DNA from: Chlamydiota bacterium
Lineage (GTDB): Bacteria > Auribacterota > Tritonobacteria > UBA1439
Assembly (NCBI GenBank): GCA_012729785.1
Contig: JAAYCL010000030.1
Location: forward strand, 1 to 25,248
DNA: 25,248 nucleotides
Reading direction: 5' to 3'
The notes under the pieces were generated by a model that saw only the letters and a list, made by a program, of their open reading frames with translations, was not told where the DNA came from and made no database searches. Positions 16,383-24,097 of the stretch are shown here, in pieces. How positions within the stretch are numbered: the stretch's first letter is position 1; each line of letters begins with the position of its first letter. The translations under genes and the position numbers were made by a program.

Positions 16383-17510
16383 TCATTCCCCCGTGTAGAT
16401 CCGGTGCTGGACCTGCTTCCCCATGGCGCACATCACGTCGTACGGGATGGTGCCGGTGAGATCGGCGACCTCGTTCACGGTGATCTCGTCGTCCCCCTGC
16501 CTCCCGATGACCACGACCTCGTCGCCGACCCGCGCCCCGGGGATGTGGCCGACGTCGATCATCGTCTGGTCCATCGTGACGTTGCCGACGACGGGGGCGC
16601 GCCTGCCGCGGACCAGGACCTCGCCCCGGTTCGAGAGGAGCCGGCAGTAGCCGTCGCCGTAGCCGATCGGGATGGTGGCGATCGCCGTGTCCCGGTAGGT
16701 GGCGTAGCTCCGGCAGTAACTGATCGACCGGCCGGGCGGCACCTGCTTCAGGTAACAGATCTCGGTCTTCAGGGTGAGGGCGGCGCGCAGGGGGACGGAC
16801 TTGACCACCTCCCGGGACGGGTAGACGCCGTAGAGCATGATCCCGATGCGGGCCAGGTTGAAGTACGAGGCGGGGAGGCCGAGGAGCGCCCCGCTGTTGG
16901 CGATATGCACCAGGGGGACGCGGATCCCCGCGCGCCGGCATTTCAGGAGCACGCGCCGGAACCGGTCGAGTTGGAGCGTGGCGAAGGAGAGGTCGCGGTC
17001 GGACGCGCAGGCGAAGTGGGACGAGATCCCCTGGAGCCGCACCCCGCGGGTGCGGCGCGCGCGGCGTATGAAGTCGAACGCCCCCTCGTGCCAGACGCCG
17101 ATGCGCCCCATCCCGGTGTCGACCACCGCGTGGATGTCCACGGCGCGCCCGGCGCGGAGGGCCGCGCGCGACACCGCGTCGAGCATCGCCGCGGAGCAGA
17201 TGACCGGGGTAACGCGGTGCCGGACGATCGCCTCTGCGTGCCCGACCATCCCGGCGCTGAGCACGAGGATCCTGGCCTCGGGGTGCGCCTTGCGCAGCTT
17301 CAGCGCCTCGTAGATGTTCGACACCCCGAGCCAGCTCGCCCCGGACCGGAGTGCGACGCGGGATATCCGCGTCATCCCGTGCCCGTAGGCGTCGGCCTTG
17401 ACCACCGCCAGGAGATGGACGCCGCGCCCGAGCTTGGCGCGTATCCGGGCGATGTTGTCCCGGACCGCGCCCAGGTCGATCTCGGCCCACGTCTTGTAGA
17501 GTTTTTCCAT
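16383..17510 (-). CDS. alr: alanine racemase
   Basis: This 375-residue fold-type III PLP enzyme interconverts L- and D-alanine for peptidoglycan synthesis. The PLP-binding lysine is Lys38 in VVKADAYGHG. Other family signatures are DTGMGRIGV, the HFACASD stretch, the substrate-side LVHIANSGALL, ARIGIMLYGVYPS, and GNVTMDQTMIDVG near the C-terminal beta domain. The catalytic tyrosine region reads SISYCRSYAT, where most relatives have SYGRTY-like sequence; the Tyr is kept but the neighbours are changed. Length is normal. It has its own promoter and is divergent from the large PEGA gene. The next gene, grpE, also has its own promoter. Confidence 0.94.
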   Translation of the reverse strand: MEKLYKTWAEIDLGAVRDNIARIRAKLGRGVHLLAVVKADAYGHGMTRISRVALRSGASWLGVSNIYEALKLRKAHPEARILVLSAGMVGHAEAIVRHRVTPVICSAAMLDAVSRAALRAGRAVDIHAVVDTGMGRIGVWHEGAFDFIRRARRTRGVRLQGISSHFACASDRDLSFATLQLDRFRRVLLKCRRAGIRVPLVHIANSGALLGLPASYFNLARIGIMLYGVYPSREVVKSVPLRAALTLKTEICYLKQVPPGRSISYCRSYATYRDTAIATIPIGYGDGYCRLLSNRGEVLVRGRRAPVVGNVTMDQTMIDVGHIPGARVGDEVVVIGRQGDDEITVNEVADLTGTIPYDVMCAMGKQVQHRIYTGE

Positions 17511-17791: not shown

Positions 17792-20725
17792 ATGTCCGTT
17801 TCGACAGCGAAACGCGCCAGTGGGACACGACTACTGGGCGCCCTTCTGTGCGCGCTGGCCTTCGCCTCCCCCCGCCCGGCGCAATGCCAGTACGGCTGGG
17901 TGCACGTCACGACCCTCCCCGAGGCCAGTTCCGCGATCTGGCTCGACTTCGTATTCGACACCGGCATCAAGACGAACGAGGTCATCGGTCCGGTCTCCTC
18001 CGGCACGCACCAGATCTACGTGGTTCCCCCCGACGGTACTCCCGTTCCCGGCCCCCGCGAAGTGGCGGTCGCCACCGGGGCCACCTCCACCGTTGAGTTC
18101 GACATCGCCACGGGGACGGGCTCCATCATCGTCTCGTCCCTCCCGGAGACGGGCGGAGACATCTACCTTGACTACGGTTCCACGGAACAGGTCACCGACG
18201 CCACGCTTGACGACGTCGCGGCGGGGACGCACTACCTGCTGCTGCGAAAGGCCGGGTGCGTGAAGCCGGGATACCAGGCGGTGGTGGTGGAGGCGAGCGC
18301 CTCGACAGAGGTCGTGATGTACCTCGAGCAGGCCGCCTCGACGACCTCGGCCGTCCTGGGCGTGGATTCGGTGCCGCCCGGGGCGGAGATCTATCTCGAC
18401 TACATCAGTCTCTCGGAGTTCACGAACAGCACGGTCTCCTCGGAGATCGGCTACGGGACGCACGACGTGACGGTGACGCTGCCGGGGTATCTCGTGCCGC
18501 CGTCGCAGACAGTCGAGCTTTCGGCGGGCACCCCCTCCACGGAGCTCCTGTTCGTGCTCGTCGAGGAGCCCACCATCACCCCGACGCCGACGGAGACGCC
18601 GACATCGACGCCGACGCCGACGCCGACGGCGACGATCACGCCCGGGGGTCCCACGCTGACGCCTACGGCGACCGCGACGGAGACGCCGACGGCCACGCCC
18701 ACGATCACGCCCGGGGGGCCGACGGTCACGCCGACGCCGACGCCGACGCCGGACCTCGGGGTGGGGTCGGTGAACGTGTACACGACGCCGGTGGCAGGGG
18801 CGGACATCCTGCTCGACTACGCGGCGACGGGACAGACGACGAACTCGACGCTGGCGCAGGTACAGGCGGGGAGCCACGTGGTGTCGGTCTCCTTGGAGGG
18901 GATGTACCCGGCGCAGGCGCCGCAGGATGTGTGGGTGGTGGGGAGCGCGTCGACGGACGTGGTGTTCGTGCTGACGGAGGCGACGGGGGCGCTTGAGGTA
19001 AGGGCGTCGCCGGAGGCGAGCGCGGAGATCTACCTGGACTACAAGAACACGGGGCTGCTGACGGACGATACGATCGGGGACGTGGGGGTGGGGACGCACT
19101 ACGTGACGGTGCGGAAGGACGGGATGGTCCCGCCGGGGGTGGTCGCGGCGGCGGTGACGGCGGGGTCGACGACGACGGTGGAGTTCGAGCTGTGGGCGGC
19201 GACCGAGTCGTGCCCGATCACAGTGGAGTCGGTGCCGACGGGGGCGGAGATCTACCTGGACTACATCGGGACGGGGCAGGTGACGAACGACACGCTTGCG
19301 GAGGTGGGGTACGGGACGCACGCGGTGACGGTGCTGCTGCCGGGGTACCTGAAGCCGCCGCCGCAGACGGTGGAGCTGTCGGCGTCCACCTGCGCGACGA
19401 CGCTGGTGTTCACGCTGGTGGAGGCGGAGACCCCGACGGTCACCCCGACGCCCACCATCACCCCGACGCCGACGATCACCCCCACGCCCACCATCACGCC
19501 GACGCCCACCATCACGCCGCCGCCGACGATCACGCCGACGCCCACCATCACCCCGACGAGGACGCCGACGCCGGTTCTGCCGACGCCGACGCCCGACCTT
19601 TCCTACGGATGGATCGGCGTCTCCACGACCCCCGTCCCCGGCTCGGCGATCTTCCTGGATTTCATCTTCGACACGGGGCTCGACACGAACGCGGTCATCG
19701 GCCCGGTGGCGTCGGGAGTTCATAACGTCCTCGTGGAGCCGCTGGATCCGACGCCCATACCGGCGCCGAAGGCGGTGGCGGTGCTCGAAGGAGCCACCTC
19801 GGAGGTCTGGTTTGACCTCGGGCTCGGGATGGGCCTGATCGATGTGACCTCCTCCCCGGAGACCGGCGCGAGGATCTACCTCGACTACGCCGACACGGGT
19901 CTGGAGACAAACGACACGATCGCAAATGTTCCGGTGGGCACGCATTTCGTGTCGATACGCAAGGACGGTTTCGATCCGCCCGGCGTGCAGACGGCGGAGG
20001 TCCTCGCGGGCGAGACGACGTCGGTCGCCTTCGAGCTGCCGCCTGCGGGCCTATGCCCCGTCACGGTGACCTCGGATCCAAACCAGGCGGAGGTATACCT
20101 CGACTACATCCCGACGGGCCAGTTGACGGATGTCGTGCTCGCGGGGATCGGCTACGGGAAGCACGACGTGACCGTGCGGCGTAGCGGGTACCTGCTGCCG
20201 CCGCCGCAGACGGTGGAGCTCTCCGCCTCGACCTGTGCGACCTCGGTGCACTTCGCGCTGGTCGAGGAGCCGCCGACGGCGACCCCGACGCCGGGACCGA
20301 CCGCCACGCCGACCGCCCCCCCGCCGCCGCCGCCGACGCCGACGCCGTTCCCCGGCGGACTTAAGGTCTGGCTGAACAACGCCGCACTCCGCCCGGGGGA
20401 CACGTTCGAGGTGGCGGTGAGCTTCACGGACTCCGTCATCGACTTCGACGGCTACATGGTGATCGTGAGATCCGACGGGCGCGCCTGGTCGATCCTCCAG
20501 GGCAACCGGCTGGTCGAGGCGCTCCTCCCCATCGTCGCCGACGCGATGGAGATCCACTACCCGTGGGGGCCGGTGACGGTGCTCAGGATGCAGGTTCCCT
20601 ACGGCGTGCCGGGCTACTACGCGGTGTACGGCGCGATACTCCCGCCGGGCACCCCGCCCACGCTCCAGAACGCCCGCGGTCCGTTCAGCCAGCTCGACAT
20701 CGAGCCGTTCTACGTATCGCCCTGA
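17792..20725 (+). CDS. secreted protein with nine PEGA domains in three triplets
   Basis: This 977-residue protein has a signal peptide (about 1-32, with LLGALLCALAFASPRPAQC) and then nine PEGA-like domains of about 72 residues. Each contains a core such as GAEIYLDYIGTGQVTN followed by GTHxVTV and an aromatic/Pro turn. The usual PEGA Gly after the Asp is replaced by Tyr or Phe (LDY/LDF). The domains form three triplets, at about 34-258, 324-545 and 604-826, each followed by a Thr-Pro linker. Residues 857-977 are a separate domain, nearly identical to the end of the next protein. ATG 17792 has a GAGAGGA ribosome site; the frame is open further upstream, but without a signal peptide. There is no catalytic motif, so a structural, adhesive or ligand-binding surface role is likely. 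No anchor motif is recognised. Confidence 0.85.
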   Translation: MSVSTAKRASGTRLLGALLCALAFASPRPAQCQYGWVHVTTLPEASSAIWLDFVFDTGIKTNEVIGPVSSGTHQIYVVPPDGTPVPGPREVAVATGATSTVEFDIATGTGSIIVSSLPETGGDIYLDYGSTEQVTDATLDDVAAGTHYLLLRKAGCVKPGYQAVVVEASASTEVVMYLEQAASTTSAVLGVDSVPPGAEIYLDYISLSEFTNSTVSSEIGYGTHDVTVTLPGYLVPPSQTVELSAGTPSTELLFVLVEEPTITPTPTETPTSTPTPTPTATITPGGPTLTPTATATETPTATPTITPGGPTVTPTPTPTPDLGVGSVNVYTTPVAGADILLDYAATGQTTNSTLAQVQAGSHVVSVSLEGMYPAQAPQDVWVVGSASTDVVFVLTEATGALEVRASPEASAEIYLDYKNTGLLTDDTIGDVGVGTHYVTVRKDGMVPPGVVAAAVTAGSTTTVEFELWAATESCPITVESVPTGAEIYLDYIGTGQVTNDTLAEVGYGTHAVTVLLPGYLKPPPQTVELSASTCATTLVFTLVEAETPTVTPTPTITPTPTITPTPTITPTPTITPPPTITPTPTITPTRTPTPVLPTPTPDLSYGWIGVSTTPVPGSAIFLDFIFDTGLDTNAVIGPVASGVHNVLVEPLDPTPIPAPKAVAVLEGATSEVWFDLGLGMGLIDVTSSPETGARIYLDYADTGLETNDTIANVPVGTHFVSIRKDGFDPPGVQTAEVLAGETTSVAFELPPAGLCPVTVTSDPNQAEVYLDYIPTGQLTDVVLAGIGYGKHDVTVRRSGYLLPPPQTVELSASTCATSVHFALVEEPPTATPTPGPTATPTAPPPPPPTPTPFPGGLKVWLNNAALRPGDTFEVAVSFTDSVIDFDGYMVIVRSDGRAWSILQGNRLVEALLPIVADAMEIHYPWGPVTVLRMQVPYGVPGYYAVYGAILPPGTPPTLQNARGPFSQLDIEPFYVSP
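17891..18565 (+). repeat. PEGA triplet 1 (A-B-C)
   Basis: Three tandem PEGA-like domains. The first, with LDFVFDTGIKTNEVIGPV, closely resembles the first domain of triplet 3. The third lacks both cysteines that mark the C-type domain elsewhere (Ala187 and Pro248 stand in their places). Confidence 0.7.
18572..18751 (+). repeat. Thr-Pro linker DNA repeat 1
   Basis: Short ACGCCG-type tandem units encode TPTPT runs, with two TITPGGPT segments inside. It links PEGA triplets 1 and 2. Such DNA is prone to slippage, so length may vary between strains or assemblies. Confidence 0.75.
18761..19426 (+). repeat. PEGA triplet 2 (A-B-C), with distinct codon use
   Basis: Three tandem PEGA-like domains more similar to the triplet in the downstream protease than to triplets 1 and 3, including the shared junction FELWAATESCPIT. 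Third codon positions are mostly G here (gtg, gcg, acg, ggg), while triplets 1 and 3 favour C. The C-type domain has Cys474 and Cys534. Confidence 0.7.
19430..19594 (+). repeat. Thr-Pro linker DNA repeat 2 (18-bp units)
   Basis: About six 18-base units encoding TPTPTI lie between roughly 19441 and 19550, with synonymous differences and one Pro replacing Thr. They join PEGA triplets 2 and 3. Confidence 0.75.
19601..20269 (+). repeat. PEGA triplet 3 (A-B-C)
   Basis: Three tandem PEGA-like domains. The A domain, with LDFIFDTGLDTNAVIGPV, pairs with that of triplet 1. The C-type domain has Cys755 and Cys815, 60 residues apart. A Thr-Pro/poly-Pro linker (20273-20356) follows. Confidence 0.7.
20360..20722 (+). 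repeat. shared C-terminal domain, copy 1
   Basis: This encodes a domain of about 120 residues beginning near VWLNNAALRPGDTFEVAVSF. It is nearly identical at DNA level to 22551-22913, with only scattered substitutions. I do not recognise the domain. Confidence 0.85.
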
Positions 20726-20764
20726 CCGCCTTCCCGCCTTGCGTGCTGCGCCGCTTTGAAGCCG

Positions 20765-20793
20765 TTGAACTCCGCCTGGGGCCGTGCTAAACT
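20765..20793 (+). promoter_or_regulatory. promoter of the papain-like protease gene
   Basis: TTGAAC (20765-20770) and TAAACT (20788-20793) are separated by 17 bases. They lie 40 bases after the stop of the large PEGA gene and about 50 bases before the protease start. The protease can therefore be transcribed on its own. Confidence 0.65.
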
Positions 20794-20843
20794 TTATTAA
20801 TAGTCTTGTTTCCGTGCCGGCCGCGCACAAAGGAGAACCGGTG

Positions 20844-22916
20844 ATGAGAAGGGCGCTCCCACTCGTGCTTTTCGCGGTTCTGACGGCCGGGGCGCGCCCC
20901 GTCCCGGCGCAGGAGCTCCATCCCCGAATGCGGTTCACGCGGGAGGAGAAGCGCCGTTGGATCGAGGCCTACGAGCGCGCCTCCCGGGTCTATCTCGATC
21001 CCGCCCTGAAGTCGATCCACGAATCCAAGGACCTCCTCAAGTACCTCTCGTACGTCCCCGCGGAGCGGGACCAGGGGTCGTGCGGCAACTGCTGGCAGTG
21101 GGCGGGGACCGGCTGCATGGAGATCTCCCACACGCTCCAGCGCGGCATCATGGACCGTTTCTCGATCCAGTATCTGAACTCCTGTGCCTCCTCGCTGATA
21201 GGGAAGGACTGCTGCGACGGCGGGACGGTGGAGAACGTGGCCGCGTTTTACAACGCGACCCGGAAGGCGATCCCCTGGTCCAACGCGCAGGCGTATTGGC
21301 AGGACGGCGACGCCTCCTGCGACACCCCCTGCGACACCGTCGCGGATTCCCCCTCCTACGGCATAGTTTCGATCGCGGCCGAGACGATCCCGACGCACAA
21401 GATCGGGCAGGAGGACGCCATAGAGAACATCAAGAACGTCCTCGATCAGAACAGGCCGGTCTTCTTCGCGTTCTTTCTCGCCGACGACGCCGATTGGGAT
21501 GTCTTCTTCAACTTCTGGAACAGCAGCGACGAGGGGAGCCTGTTCAATTTCGACTACTCCTGCAACCACCCGTGGAACCCCAAGCAGGGAGGCGGGCACG
21601 CGGTGCTCTGCGTGGGGTACGACGACGAAGACCCCGACGACCGCTACTGGCTGATGCTCAACAGCTGGGGCACCACGGCGGGCCGTCCGAACGGGCTCTT
21701 CCGGGTGGATATGGACATCGACTACGACTGCGCCGACACCACCCCCGAGTACAACCTCTTCTGGCAAACGCTGAACGTCGTCTATCAGACGGAACCGACC
21801 CCGACCCCGACGCCGAAACCCTCGACGACGGGCGCACTCAACGTCTCCAGCAGTCCGGTTCAGGGGGCGGCGATCTACCTGGACTACTTCAGCGTGGGGC
21901 AGCTCACGAACAGCATCCTGGCCGCCGTGCACCCGGGCATGCATACGGTGTGGGTCTCCCACCCGGCGTATCCGCCGCAGGCCCCGCGCGAGGGGGTGGA
22001 GGTCGTCGCGGGCGGGGTGACCCCGGTGACGTTCGAGCTCAAGGATGCCTTGCAGTCGGGCGATATCCTCGTCGAGTCGGACCCGGAAAAGGGCGCGGCG
22101 ATTTACCTCGACTACCGCAACACCGGCCTGGTGACCGACGCGACGCTCGCCGACATCGGCCCGGGCACGCACTACGTGACGATACGGAAGGACGGCACGG
22201 TCCCGCCCGGTCTGCAGGCGGCCTTTGTGGAGACGGGGCTGACCACCCCGCTGCTCTTCGGGCTATGGGCGGCGACGGACTCCTGCCCGATCAGCGTCTC
22301 CTCGGTGCCCACGGGTGCGGATATCTACCTCGACTACCTGCCGACAGGACTTGTCACCGACGCCACCATCGAGGAGGTCGGGCATGGAACGCACGACGTC
22401 ACGGTGCGCAAGAGCGGGTACCTGATACCGCCGCCGCAGACGGTGGAGCTGTCGGCGGCCACCTGCGCCACCTCGCTGGTCTTCGAACTGATGGCCGTGC
22501 CGACCCCGACCCCGATCCCGACGCCGACGCCGACGCCGTTCGCGCAGGGCCTGCGCGTCTGGCTGAACAACGCCGCGCTCCGCCCGGGGGACACGTTCGA
22601 GGTGGCGGTGAGCTTCACGGACTCCATCCTCGACTTCGACGGCTACATGGTGATCGTGAGATCCGACGGGCGCGCCTGGTCGATCCTCCCGGGCAACCGG
22701 CTGGTCGAGGGGCTCCTCCCCATCGTCGCCGACGCGCTGGAGATCCACCACCCGTGGGGGCCGGTGACGGTGTTCAGGATGCAGATTCCGTACGGCGTGC
22801 CGGGCTACTACGCGGTGTACGCCGCGATACTCCCGTCGGGCACCCCGCCCACGCTCCAAAACGCCCGCGGACTGTACGCGCAGCTTGACGTGGAACCCGC
22901 GCGGGTCCTGTATTAG
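20844..22916 (+). CDS. secreted papain-family cysteine protease with PEGA triplet
   Basis: This 690-residue protein has a signal peptide (1-23, ending PVPAQ) and then a C1A papain-like domain (about 65-315). The catalytic set is complete: Gln77 and Cys83 in QGSCGNCWQW, His252 in GGGHAVLCVGYDD, and Asn273 in LNSWGTT. Extra cysteines (for example CC at 123-124 and 159/163) suggest disulfides in an exported enzyme. No long propeptide is evident; residues 24-64 may serve. A short Thr-Pro linker leads to three PEGA-like domains (331-551), then a second linker and a C-terminal domain (570-690) almost identical to that of the upstream protein. ATG 20844 has AAAGGAG upstream; GTG 20841 is an alternative. 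It probably acts at the cell surface or outside the cell; the substrate is unknown. Confidence 0.9.
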   Translation: MRRALPLVLFAVLTAGARPVPAQELHPRMRFTREEKRRWIEAYERASRVYLDPALKSIHESKDLLKYLSYVPAERDQGSCGNCWQWAGTGCMEISHTLQRGIMDRFSIQYLNSCASSLIGKDCCDGGTVENVAAFYNATRKAIPWSNAQAYWQDGDASCDTPCDTVADSPSYGIVSIAAETIPTHKIGQEDAIENIKNVLDQNRPVFFAFFLADDADWDVFFNFWNSSDEGSLFNFDYSCNHPWNPKQGGGHAVLCVGYDDEDPDDRYWLMLNSWGTTAGRPNGLFRVDMDIDYDCADTTPEYNLFWQTLNVVYQTEPTPTPTPKPSTTGALNVSSSPVQGAAIYLDYFSVGQLTNSILAAVHPGMHTVWVSHPAYPPQAPREGVEVVAGGVTPVTFELKDALQSGDILVESDPEKGAAIYLDYRNTGLVTDATLADIGPGTHYVTIRKDGTVPPGLQAAFVETGLTTPLLFGLWAATDSCPISVSSVPTGADIYLDYLPTGLVTDATIEEVGHGTHDVTVRKSGYLIPPPQTVELSAATCATSLVFELMAVPTPTPIPTPTPTPFAQGLRVWLNNAALRPGDTFEVAVSFTDSILDFDGYMVIVRSDGRAWSILPGNRLVEGLLPIVADALEIHHPWGPVTVFRMQIPYGVPGYYAVYAAILPSGTPPTLQNARGLYAQLDVEPARVLY
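21834..22496 (+). repeat. PEGA triplet of the protease (A-B-C)
   Basis: Three tandem PEGA-like domains matching triplet 2 of the upstream protein in order and junction sequence (FGLWAATDSCPIS). The C-type domain has Cys481 and Cys541, again 60 residues apart. It is flanked by short Thr-Pro linkers at 21792-21833 and 22500-22550. Confidence 0.75.
22551..22913 (+). repeat. shared C-terminal domain, copy 2
   Basis: Second copy of the domain at 20360-20722, at the end of the protease. Because it is terminal in two otherwise different secreted proteins, it may be a sorting, export or anchoring domain; that is inference. Confidence 0.85.
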
Positions 22917-22999: not shown

Positions 23000-24097
23000 C
23001 TATGCGGAGTTCCCCGCCCCCCGCGCCGACGCCTCTTCCCGCAGCGTCCGCACGATCTCGGCGAGTTCCGCCGTCTCGCGCCGGAGATGGCCGACGCTCA
23101 TCCGGAGCGAAGAGACGCAGAGGTCCTCCTCCCCCGGACTATCGAGGCCCGCCGCGGCGACCGGCCCGTCCGCGGCGGGCCCTGTCAGGCACCTGCCCGA
23201 GCCGCCGCGCGCGGGCGTACCGAGCGCGCTGCACGAGTCCAGGATCCCCCGGAAACAGGCCGCCGCGGCGTCGATCTCCGCGTCGAGCGCCTGTTTCTGT
23301 CCCGCCGTCAGAAGCCCGTCGCGGAATATCCGCGGGCTGAACCAGAGGACGTCCCACGAGTAGTGCGCGACCGAGGCGAGCCTGTCCGCGATGCGCGAGA
23401 GCGAGACCACGGCGGCGTAGCTGAGTCCGCCGCTCTCCTTCCGGAGCCGCAGCTCCTTCTTCAGGTCCGCCATCTCGTCGATGGCGCTGCTGATGAGACG
23501 GAAGAGGCCGTGGAAGCGCGCCTCGAGCCGTTCCATCCCGTCCGCGTCCCCCGCGATGAAGCTCCGCTGCAGCCGTTCGAAACAGTCCGCCGCGATCCCG
23601 AGGAGCTCCCTGCACCTGCCGAGGTAGAGCTCGCGGTAGCGGAACCTGGATGCCGCCCAGTTGACCAGCATCGCGATCCCGATCCCCGCCCCGACCTGGA
23701 CGGTGCGGTCGAGGCTGCTCGCCCAGATGCTCTCCTCGGGGTAGTAGGAGACGACGAGCAGCGTGAAGGCGGCCAGCGGGAAATGGTCGAGCCAGTTCAA
23801 GACGTAGCAGGCGAGGCAGACGATCATGATCCCGGGCGGGATCGCGAGGAAGTCGTTGTCTAGCGTCACGATGAGGATCGTGCCCACGAGGGCGCCGATC
23901 ACCGTGGCGTAGATGTTCTTGATGCCGGTCTTGAGGCCCCGGTAGAAGGCGGAGGGGATGCAGAGGATCGCGGTGAAGGCGATCGTGATCGGCTCGTCGA
24001 AGGCGGGGATCCTGCTCACCGCGAGGGAGAGGAGGGCGACGACCCCCGCCTTCGCGATCAGGTACCTTGCCGCGAGCGTGATCCTCTTCGGTCGCAT
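23000..24097 (-). CDS. FUSC/aromatic acid exporter-like membrane protein
   Basis: This 365-residue protein has about six hydrophobic helices in residues 10-150 and a long soluble C-terminal half. The loop and helix YRGLKTGIKNIYATVIGALVG and the later DRTVQVGAGIGIAMLVNW resemble the repeated helices of the FUSC/ArAE (DUF939-type) family of inner-membrane exporters. The soluble half (about 155-300) is helical, with Arg/Glu-rich segments, as in those proteins. Typical substrates are aromatic acids or other organic anions, but none can be named here. It is a single gene convergent with the protease. The last 60 residues are Gly/Ala-rich and unremarkable. Confidence 0.7.
   Translation of the reverse strand: MRPKRITLAARYLIAKAGVVALLSLAVSRIPAFDEPITIAFTAILCIPSAFYRGLKTGIKNIYATVIGALVGTILIVTLDNDFLAIPPGIMIVCLACYVLNWLDHFPLAAFTLLVVSYYPEESIWASSLDRTVQVGAGIGIAMLVNWAASRFRYRELYLGRCRELLGIAADCFERLQRSFIAGDADGMERLEARFHGLFRLISSAIDEMADLKKELRLRKESGGLSYAAVVSLSRIADRLASVAHYSWDVLWFSPRIFRDGLLTAGQKQALDAEIDAAAACFRGILDSCSALGTPARGGSGRCLTGPAADGPVAAAGLDSPGEEDLCVSSLRMSVGHLRRETAELAEIVRTLREEASARGAGNSA

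Follow-up and report, generated by a model that had tools for sequence, protein, structure and literature searches.

As seen in Table 1, two adjacent genes, termed p1 and p2, lie on the forward strand of the window, the whole stretch of 25,248 nucleotides that was analyzed. Their coordinates and lengths in the earlier note agree exactly with the positions of the open reading frames. The genes are separated by 118 bases, and a scan for promoters and terminators between and around them gave no signal above chance. Judged by their sequences, both products look exported.

Table 1. Features of the p1-p2 locus and its neighbors (window positions; CTD, C-terminal domain)
Feature	Position	Strand	Remark
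alr, alanine racemase	16383..17510	-	Divergent neighbor; marks conserved slot in G001, G003 and G004
p1, predicted secreted scaffold, 977 aa	17792..20725	+	ATG 17792, stop 20725; 9 PEGA modules, 3 Thr-Pro linkers, CTD
p1 PEGA triplet 1	17891..18565	+	aa 34-258
p1 Thr-Pro linker 1	18554..18772	+	aa 255-327
p1 PEGA triplet 2	18761..19429	+	aa 324-546
p1 Thr-Pro linker 2	19412..19603	+	aa 541-604
p1 PEGA triplet 3	19604..20272	+	aa 605-827
p1 Thr-Pro linker 3	20255..20347	+	aa 822-852
p1 CTD	20354..20722	+	
p2, predicted secreted papain-type (C1) protease, 690 aa	20844..22916	+	ATG 20844, stop 22916; 1 PEGA triplet, Thr-Pro linkers, CTD
p2 probable signal peptide	20844..20912	+	aa 1-23; sequence and simple rule
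p2 Peptidase_C1 domain	21033..21731	+	Pfam, aa 64-296
p2 catalytic codon Cys83	21090-21092	+	
p2 catalytic codon His252	21597-21599	+	
p2 catalytic codon Asn273	21660-21662	+	
p2 PEGA triplet	21828..22502	+	aa 329-553
p2 Thr-Pro linker preceding CTD	22494..22538	+	aa 551-565
p2 CTD	22545..22913	+	
FUSC/ArAE-type membrane protein gene	23000..24097	-	Closes slot, also in G003

The modular composition described in the earlier note was recovered in both proteins. The Pfam PEGA model (PF08308, gathering cut-off 20.8) matches p1 with E=1.3e-35 (121.5 bits) and p2 with E=5.4e-18 (65.1 bits). Read by their xIxLDY cores, nine PEGA modules are present in p1 and three in p2; an automatic pattern gave 8 in p1, and the ninth module, which has GDIYLDY, was added by eye. 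Thr-Pro linkers were located by residue position in both proteins, including a further one at residues 315-324 of p2. Residues 592-972 of p1 and 318-685 of p2 share 61% identity over about 380 residues. Both proteins end in the same domain of about 120 residues, the CTD, with 84% identity over 123 residues and 88% identity at the DNA level. The similarity exceeds that of shuffled sequence by 72 SD for the PEGA triplets and by 103 SD for the CTDs, indicating that the shared modules are homologous and not alike by chance.

The genome carrying the window (G000) was compared with five other genomes of the same taxonomic family (G001-G005), which together make six family genomes, and with 38 other genomes of the phylum. 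G001 belongs to the same genus, and G003 and G004 represent two other genera; the assemblies of G001 and G005 are incomplete and fragmented. G006, from the same class, is free of the CTD. Contigs are denoted by C numbers and loci by L numbers.

PEGA is a known cell-surface domain. In p1 and p2, PEGA modules come in triplets of fixed order (A-B-C), three of them in p1 and one in p2, and modules are mostly most alike at equal triplet positions. Identities are 55-68% for all pairs of C modules and 55-61% for the B modules of p1 triplets 2 and 3 and p2, and are more scattered for A pairs and for the B module of p1 triplet 1. Among the p1 triplets, the second is nearest to that of p2 and also to the orthologue in G001. 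In a tree of modules from p1, p2 and proteins of G001, G002 and G003, grouping followed triplet position in all proteins except L116, whose A and B modules were unplaced; several deeper branches of this tree are weakly supported. The hosts of the triplet include a papain, a metallophosphatase with propeller, a metallo-beta-lactamase with propeller, and propellers with beta-helix. These sequence relationships indicate that the triplet is inherited as an ordered unit across different hosts. The p1 and p2 modules exceed the cut-off of the Pfam model for PEGA domain proteins, first described in PMC2447325, and differ from these proteins in forming an ordered triplet that is passed on whole. Additionally, secreted proteins of metallo-beta-lactamase fold with a CTD or PEGA triplet recur in the family (L023, L115, L116).

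The protease domain of p2 was matched by Pfam Peptidase_C1 (PF00112) with E=1.6e-19 (71.3 bits, gathering cut-off 20.7), and p2 also matches solved cathepsins. Alignment with other C1 domains showed the catalytic set to be complete (Gln77, Cys83, His252, Asn273), as the earlier note had read it. In these four residues p2 agrees with the papain family; it differs in belonging to a distinct subfamily, here found in MAG lineages only, and in being fused to a PEGA triplet and CTD. Structure prediction of p2 from a 5-row alignment gave a mean pLDDT of 31. C1 domains of the p2 type, with about 39-55% identity, were found on contig C24 of G000, in G002 and G006, and in three MAGs, whose labels are CSSED10-310, Desulfobacteraceae and unclassified. 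In a scan of genome contigs with p2, the homologues in the three MAGs cover the protease domain only. None of the p2-type proteases of C24, G002, G006 and the three MAGs carries PEGA. Fragments of a p2-type protease, nearest to the C24 type, were present in G001. From these comparisons, the protease domain of p2 has a history of its own. The possibility that p2 arose recently by copying of the C24 protease was rejected, the two being 53% identical without a supported sister relation. The C24 protease, the second of the p2 type in G000 (L128:2836-4221), has a C-terminus that resembles a divergent CTD; this divergent end domain is common to L112 and L119 and was missed by the first CTD profile. 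At the end of contig C64 of G001 (L111), the reading frame of a p2-type protease enters LacI-repressor-like sequence with an inverted repeat, probably representing a chimeric assembly end.

Only one other protein combining papain, PEGA and CTD was found, on contig C161 of G002 (L081 / L113:1550-3763), and its protease domain belongs to another C1 lineage. Ser replaces the catalytic Cys in this protein (CGSSYAF), which is probably an inactive protease. Therefore, catalysis is not constant in the papain-PEGA-CTD architecture.

As for the CTD itself, a search of G000 with the p2 CTD revealed about 20 further places, and nearly all of the reading frames concerned are long proteins that end in the CTD, often after Thr-Pro linkers. 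A first profile, A1, found 42 places in G000. The broader profile A2 found 43 in G000 and 26, 78, 39, 81 and 20 in G001-G005, respectively; the 38 other genomes of the phylum gave no match. The profiles were trained on one family only, so that distant relatives elsewhere may be missed. The cargo in G000 includes PQQ and kelch propellers, a beta-lactamase-type hydrolase, a metallo-beta-lactamase fold, a beta-helix with golvesin domain, SBBP repeats, DUF11 and a second papain. By a simple rule, signal peptides were present in 30 of 54 distinct CTD reading frames from the retrieved loci, many of these frames being truncated at the edge of a locus. No Pfam model fits among 21 CTD members, and NCBIfam gave two weak, unrelated names only for 46 members. 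A PDB search with the CTD profile gave no meaningful hit (best E 0.03, an unrelated palmitoyltransferase entry), and no description of the domain was found in the open-licence literature.

The position of the CTD is highly regular. In 53 of the 54 reading frames it is a single copy at the very end, with at most 33 residues following. Placement at the very C-terminus of many exported proteins that are otherwise unrelated is characteristic of a sorting or anchoring tag, and is what these sequences display. Alternatively, the CTD might bind surface polysaccharide, S-layer or extracellular matrix, with secretion directed by another signal. Such a binding domain would give the same distribution and the same terminal position, and would be in keeping with the high diversity of the copies, most of which are at most 31% identical to the p2 CTD, and with a low-confidence structure prediction of mostly strands (2-row alignment, mean pLDDT 50). 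However, binding domains usually also occur internally or N-terminally and in repeated form, and the single terminal copy makes this alternative rather unlikely. Taken together, the signal peptides, the terminal site on varied cargo, the restriction to one lineage and the linkers point to a sorting or anchoring tag. The common tail suggests a lineage-specific tag for surface delivery or anchoring. In the genomes compared, the CTD is secretome-wide and restricted to the family, and not a private link between p1 and p2.

The genes next to alr differ among the family genomes. In G001, alr adjoins an orthologue of p1, within which the contig stops. In G003, alr is followed by a CTD protein with propeller and beta-helix, a CTD protein with PEGA triplet, propellers and beta-helix, and the FUSC-type gene. 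In G004, it is followed by a three-propeller CTD protein and a thermolysin-type M4 protease with CTD. No such CTD protein lies next to alr in G002 and G005. The CTDs of the three slot pairs and of the G002 papain-PEGA-CTD protein form one clade (99/99). These comparisons indicate an exchange of cargo at the slot from genus to genus, with the CTD type kept. In the CTD tree, the p1 and p2 domains are sisters within G000, and so are the two slot domains within G003 (100/99 in each case), unlike those of the G004 pair. The two tandem G003 proteins (L117:922-9101) have a tail of beta-helix and CTD in common, with 97% DNA identity along 890 bp and 89% along another 611, and their CTDs are followed by a short extension of basic character. 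Because neighboring CTDs are nearest relatives in two of the three genomes, the shared tail reflects local duplication or conversion.

These results bear on the proposal of the earlier note that p1 and p2 form one surface system, with p2 either processing p1 or placed next to it on the surface by PEGA modules that correspond, to which the matching CTDs can be added. The proposal is partly supported: the modules are homologous, both proteins look exported, and the slot holds two adjacent CTD proteins in two other genera. A dedicated pairing of scaffold and protease is not supported. The refuting condition set by the earlier note, a pair that is not found together in relatives, applies in G003 and G004, where the slot is readable and has other cargo; the pairing was also not seen in G001, G002 and G005, an absence that is weak for the fragmented and incomplete G001 and G005. 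A dedicated pair would accord with the adjacency of the genes on one strand at a short distance, the similarity of their tails and CTDs, the intact catalytic residues of p2, and the M4 protease with CTD in the G004 slot. It is nevertheless improbable, as the CTD is common to about 40 other places in G000 and to 20-81 places per family genome, the G003 slot has no protease, p2-type proteases elsewhere have no PEGA, the papain-PEGA-CTD protein of G002 has Ser at the catalytic Cys, and local duplication or conversion accounts for the shared tails.

With regard to export, G000 has a type II secretion operon in which GspD, GspE, GspF and GspG exceed curated NCBIfam cut-offs, and secretins are present in five of the six family genomes, G000 included. 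The secretins and the operon make an outer membrane very probable and offer a plausible exporter of folded proteins. On the basis of gene content, the operon is the best candidate exporter of p1 and p2.

Among known tags, the CTDs of type IX secretion are defined as type A (PF18962/TIGR04183) and type B (PF13585/TIGR04131) (PMC10202324). Like these, the p1/p2-type CTD has about 100 residues or slightly more, forms the very end of many unrelated exported proteins that carry signal peptides, and occurs in many copies per genome in one lineage only. In contrast, it is unmatched by the type IX models in both member sets above and is not of Bacteroidota-type sequence. A search for the SprA/Sov translocon found none in the six family genomes, with control genomes equally silent. 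PEP-CTERM and LPXTG-like signals are likewise C-terminal tags that belong to particular lineages, are borne by varied cargo and often follow Thr/Pro-rich linkers; they consist of a short motif, a membrane helix and a basic tail, whereas the CTD, at about 120 residues, is a domain and has no such tail. In the CSSED10-310 MAG, a p2-type protease with a long Thr-Pro linker (L107:5481-7808) terminates in a hydrophobic helix and basic tail, by eye resembling a tripartite sorting signal; no NCBIfam model matched.

A further reading is that CTDs are clipped off tagged proteins by a papain-type protease that itself has a CTD, a maturase with a role like that of the PorU sortase of type IX secretion. 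C1 proteases exist in all six family genomes, and several end in a CTD. However, C1 proteases also exist in the CTD-free G006, and a conserved cleavage motif was not identified. Moreover, p2 with PEGA is present in G000 only and is therefore no general maturase itself; at best, the other papain type fits the distribution. Such a role is very improbable.

On balance, and with moderate confidence, p1 and p2 are best explained as tandem members of a CTD-tagged, surface-displayed and lineage-specific secretome, with PEGA stalks, cargo exchange at the slot, and export by Sec and possibly type II secretion. The two proteins would be exported by Sec through their signal peptides, and type II secretion would perhaps carry them out of the cell. 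The PEGA triplets would serve as cargo or stalk modules joined by flexible Thr-Pro linkers, with p1 a passive surface stalk or fibre. The CTD would be the sorting or anchoring tag, probably placing each protein on the outer surface. Predicted to be a protease, p2 would most likely cleave external proteins. At the two-gene slot beside alr, cargo would be exchanged between genera with the CTD type staying, and in G000 and G003 the tails of neighbors would have been duplicated or converted locally, giving rise to the shared modules. A bolder extension of this explanation, offered only tentatively, is that the CTD is the signal of an undescribed surface-delivery route, either a new route or a new class of type II tag, which serves dozens of cargos in one family, and that loci like alr-p1-p2 are cargo-swapping slots.

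An account of two proteins gives way in this manner to a secretome-wide one. In a lineage about which little is known, an unnamed domain with 20-81 copies per genome singles out a sizeable group of exported proteins. If the CTD is a sorting tag, it provides a ready list of surface proteins and a handle on the machinery of their export or attachment, and represents an independent case beside the type IX tags. The alr slot, with module exchange and homogenisation of tails, is a natural example of surface-protein rebuilding.

Two smaller observations concern other CTD reading frames. In G002, a PEGA-triplet protein (L072 / G002:C72:4062-4391) has one in-frame TGA in its CTD end region. On contig C38 of G000, a reading frame of 149 residues (L031:1637-2083) extends scarcely beyond a Thr-Pro linker and CTD. 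It is nearly identical to the tail of an adjacent propeller protein of 520 residues and is probably a decayed tandem copy.
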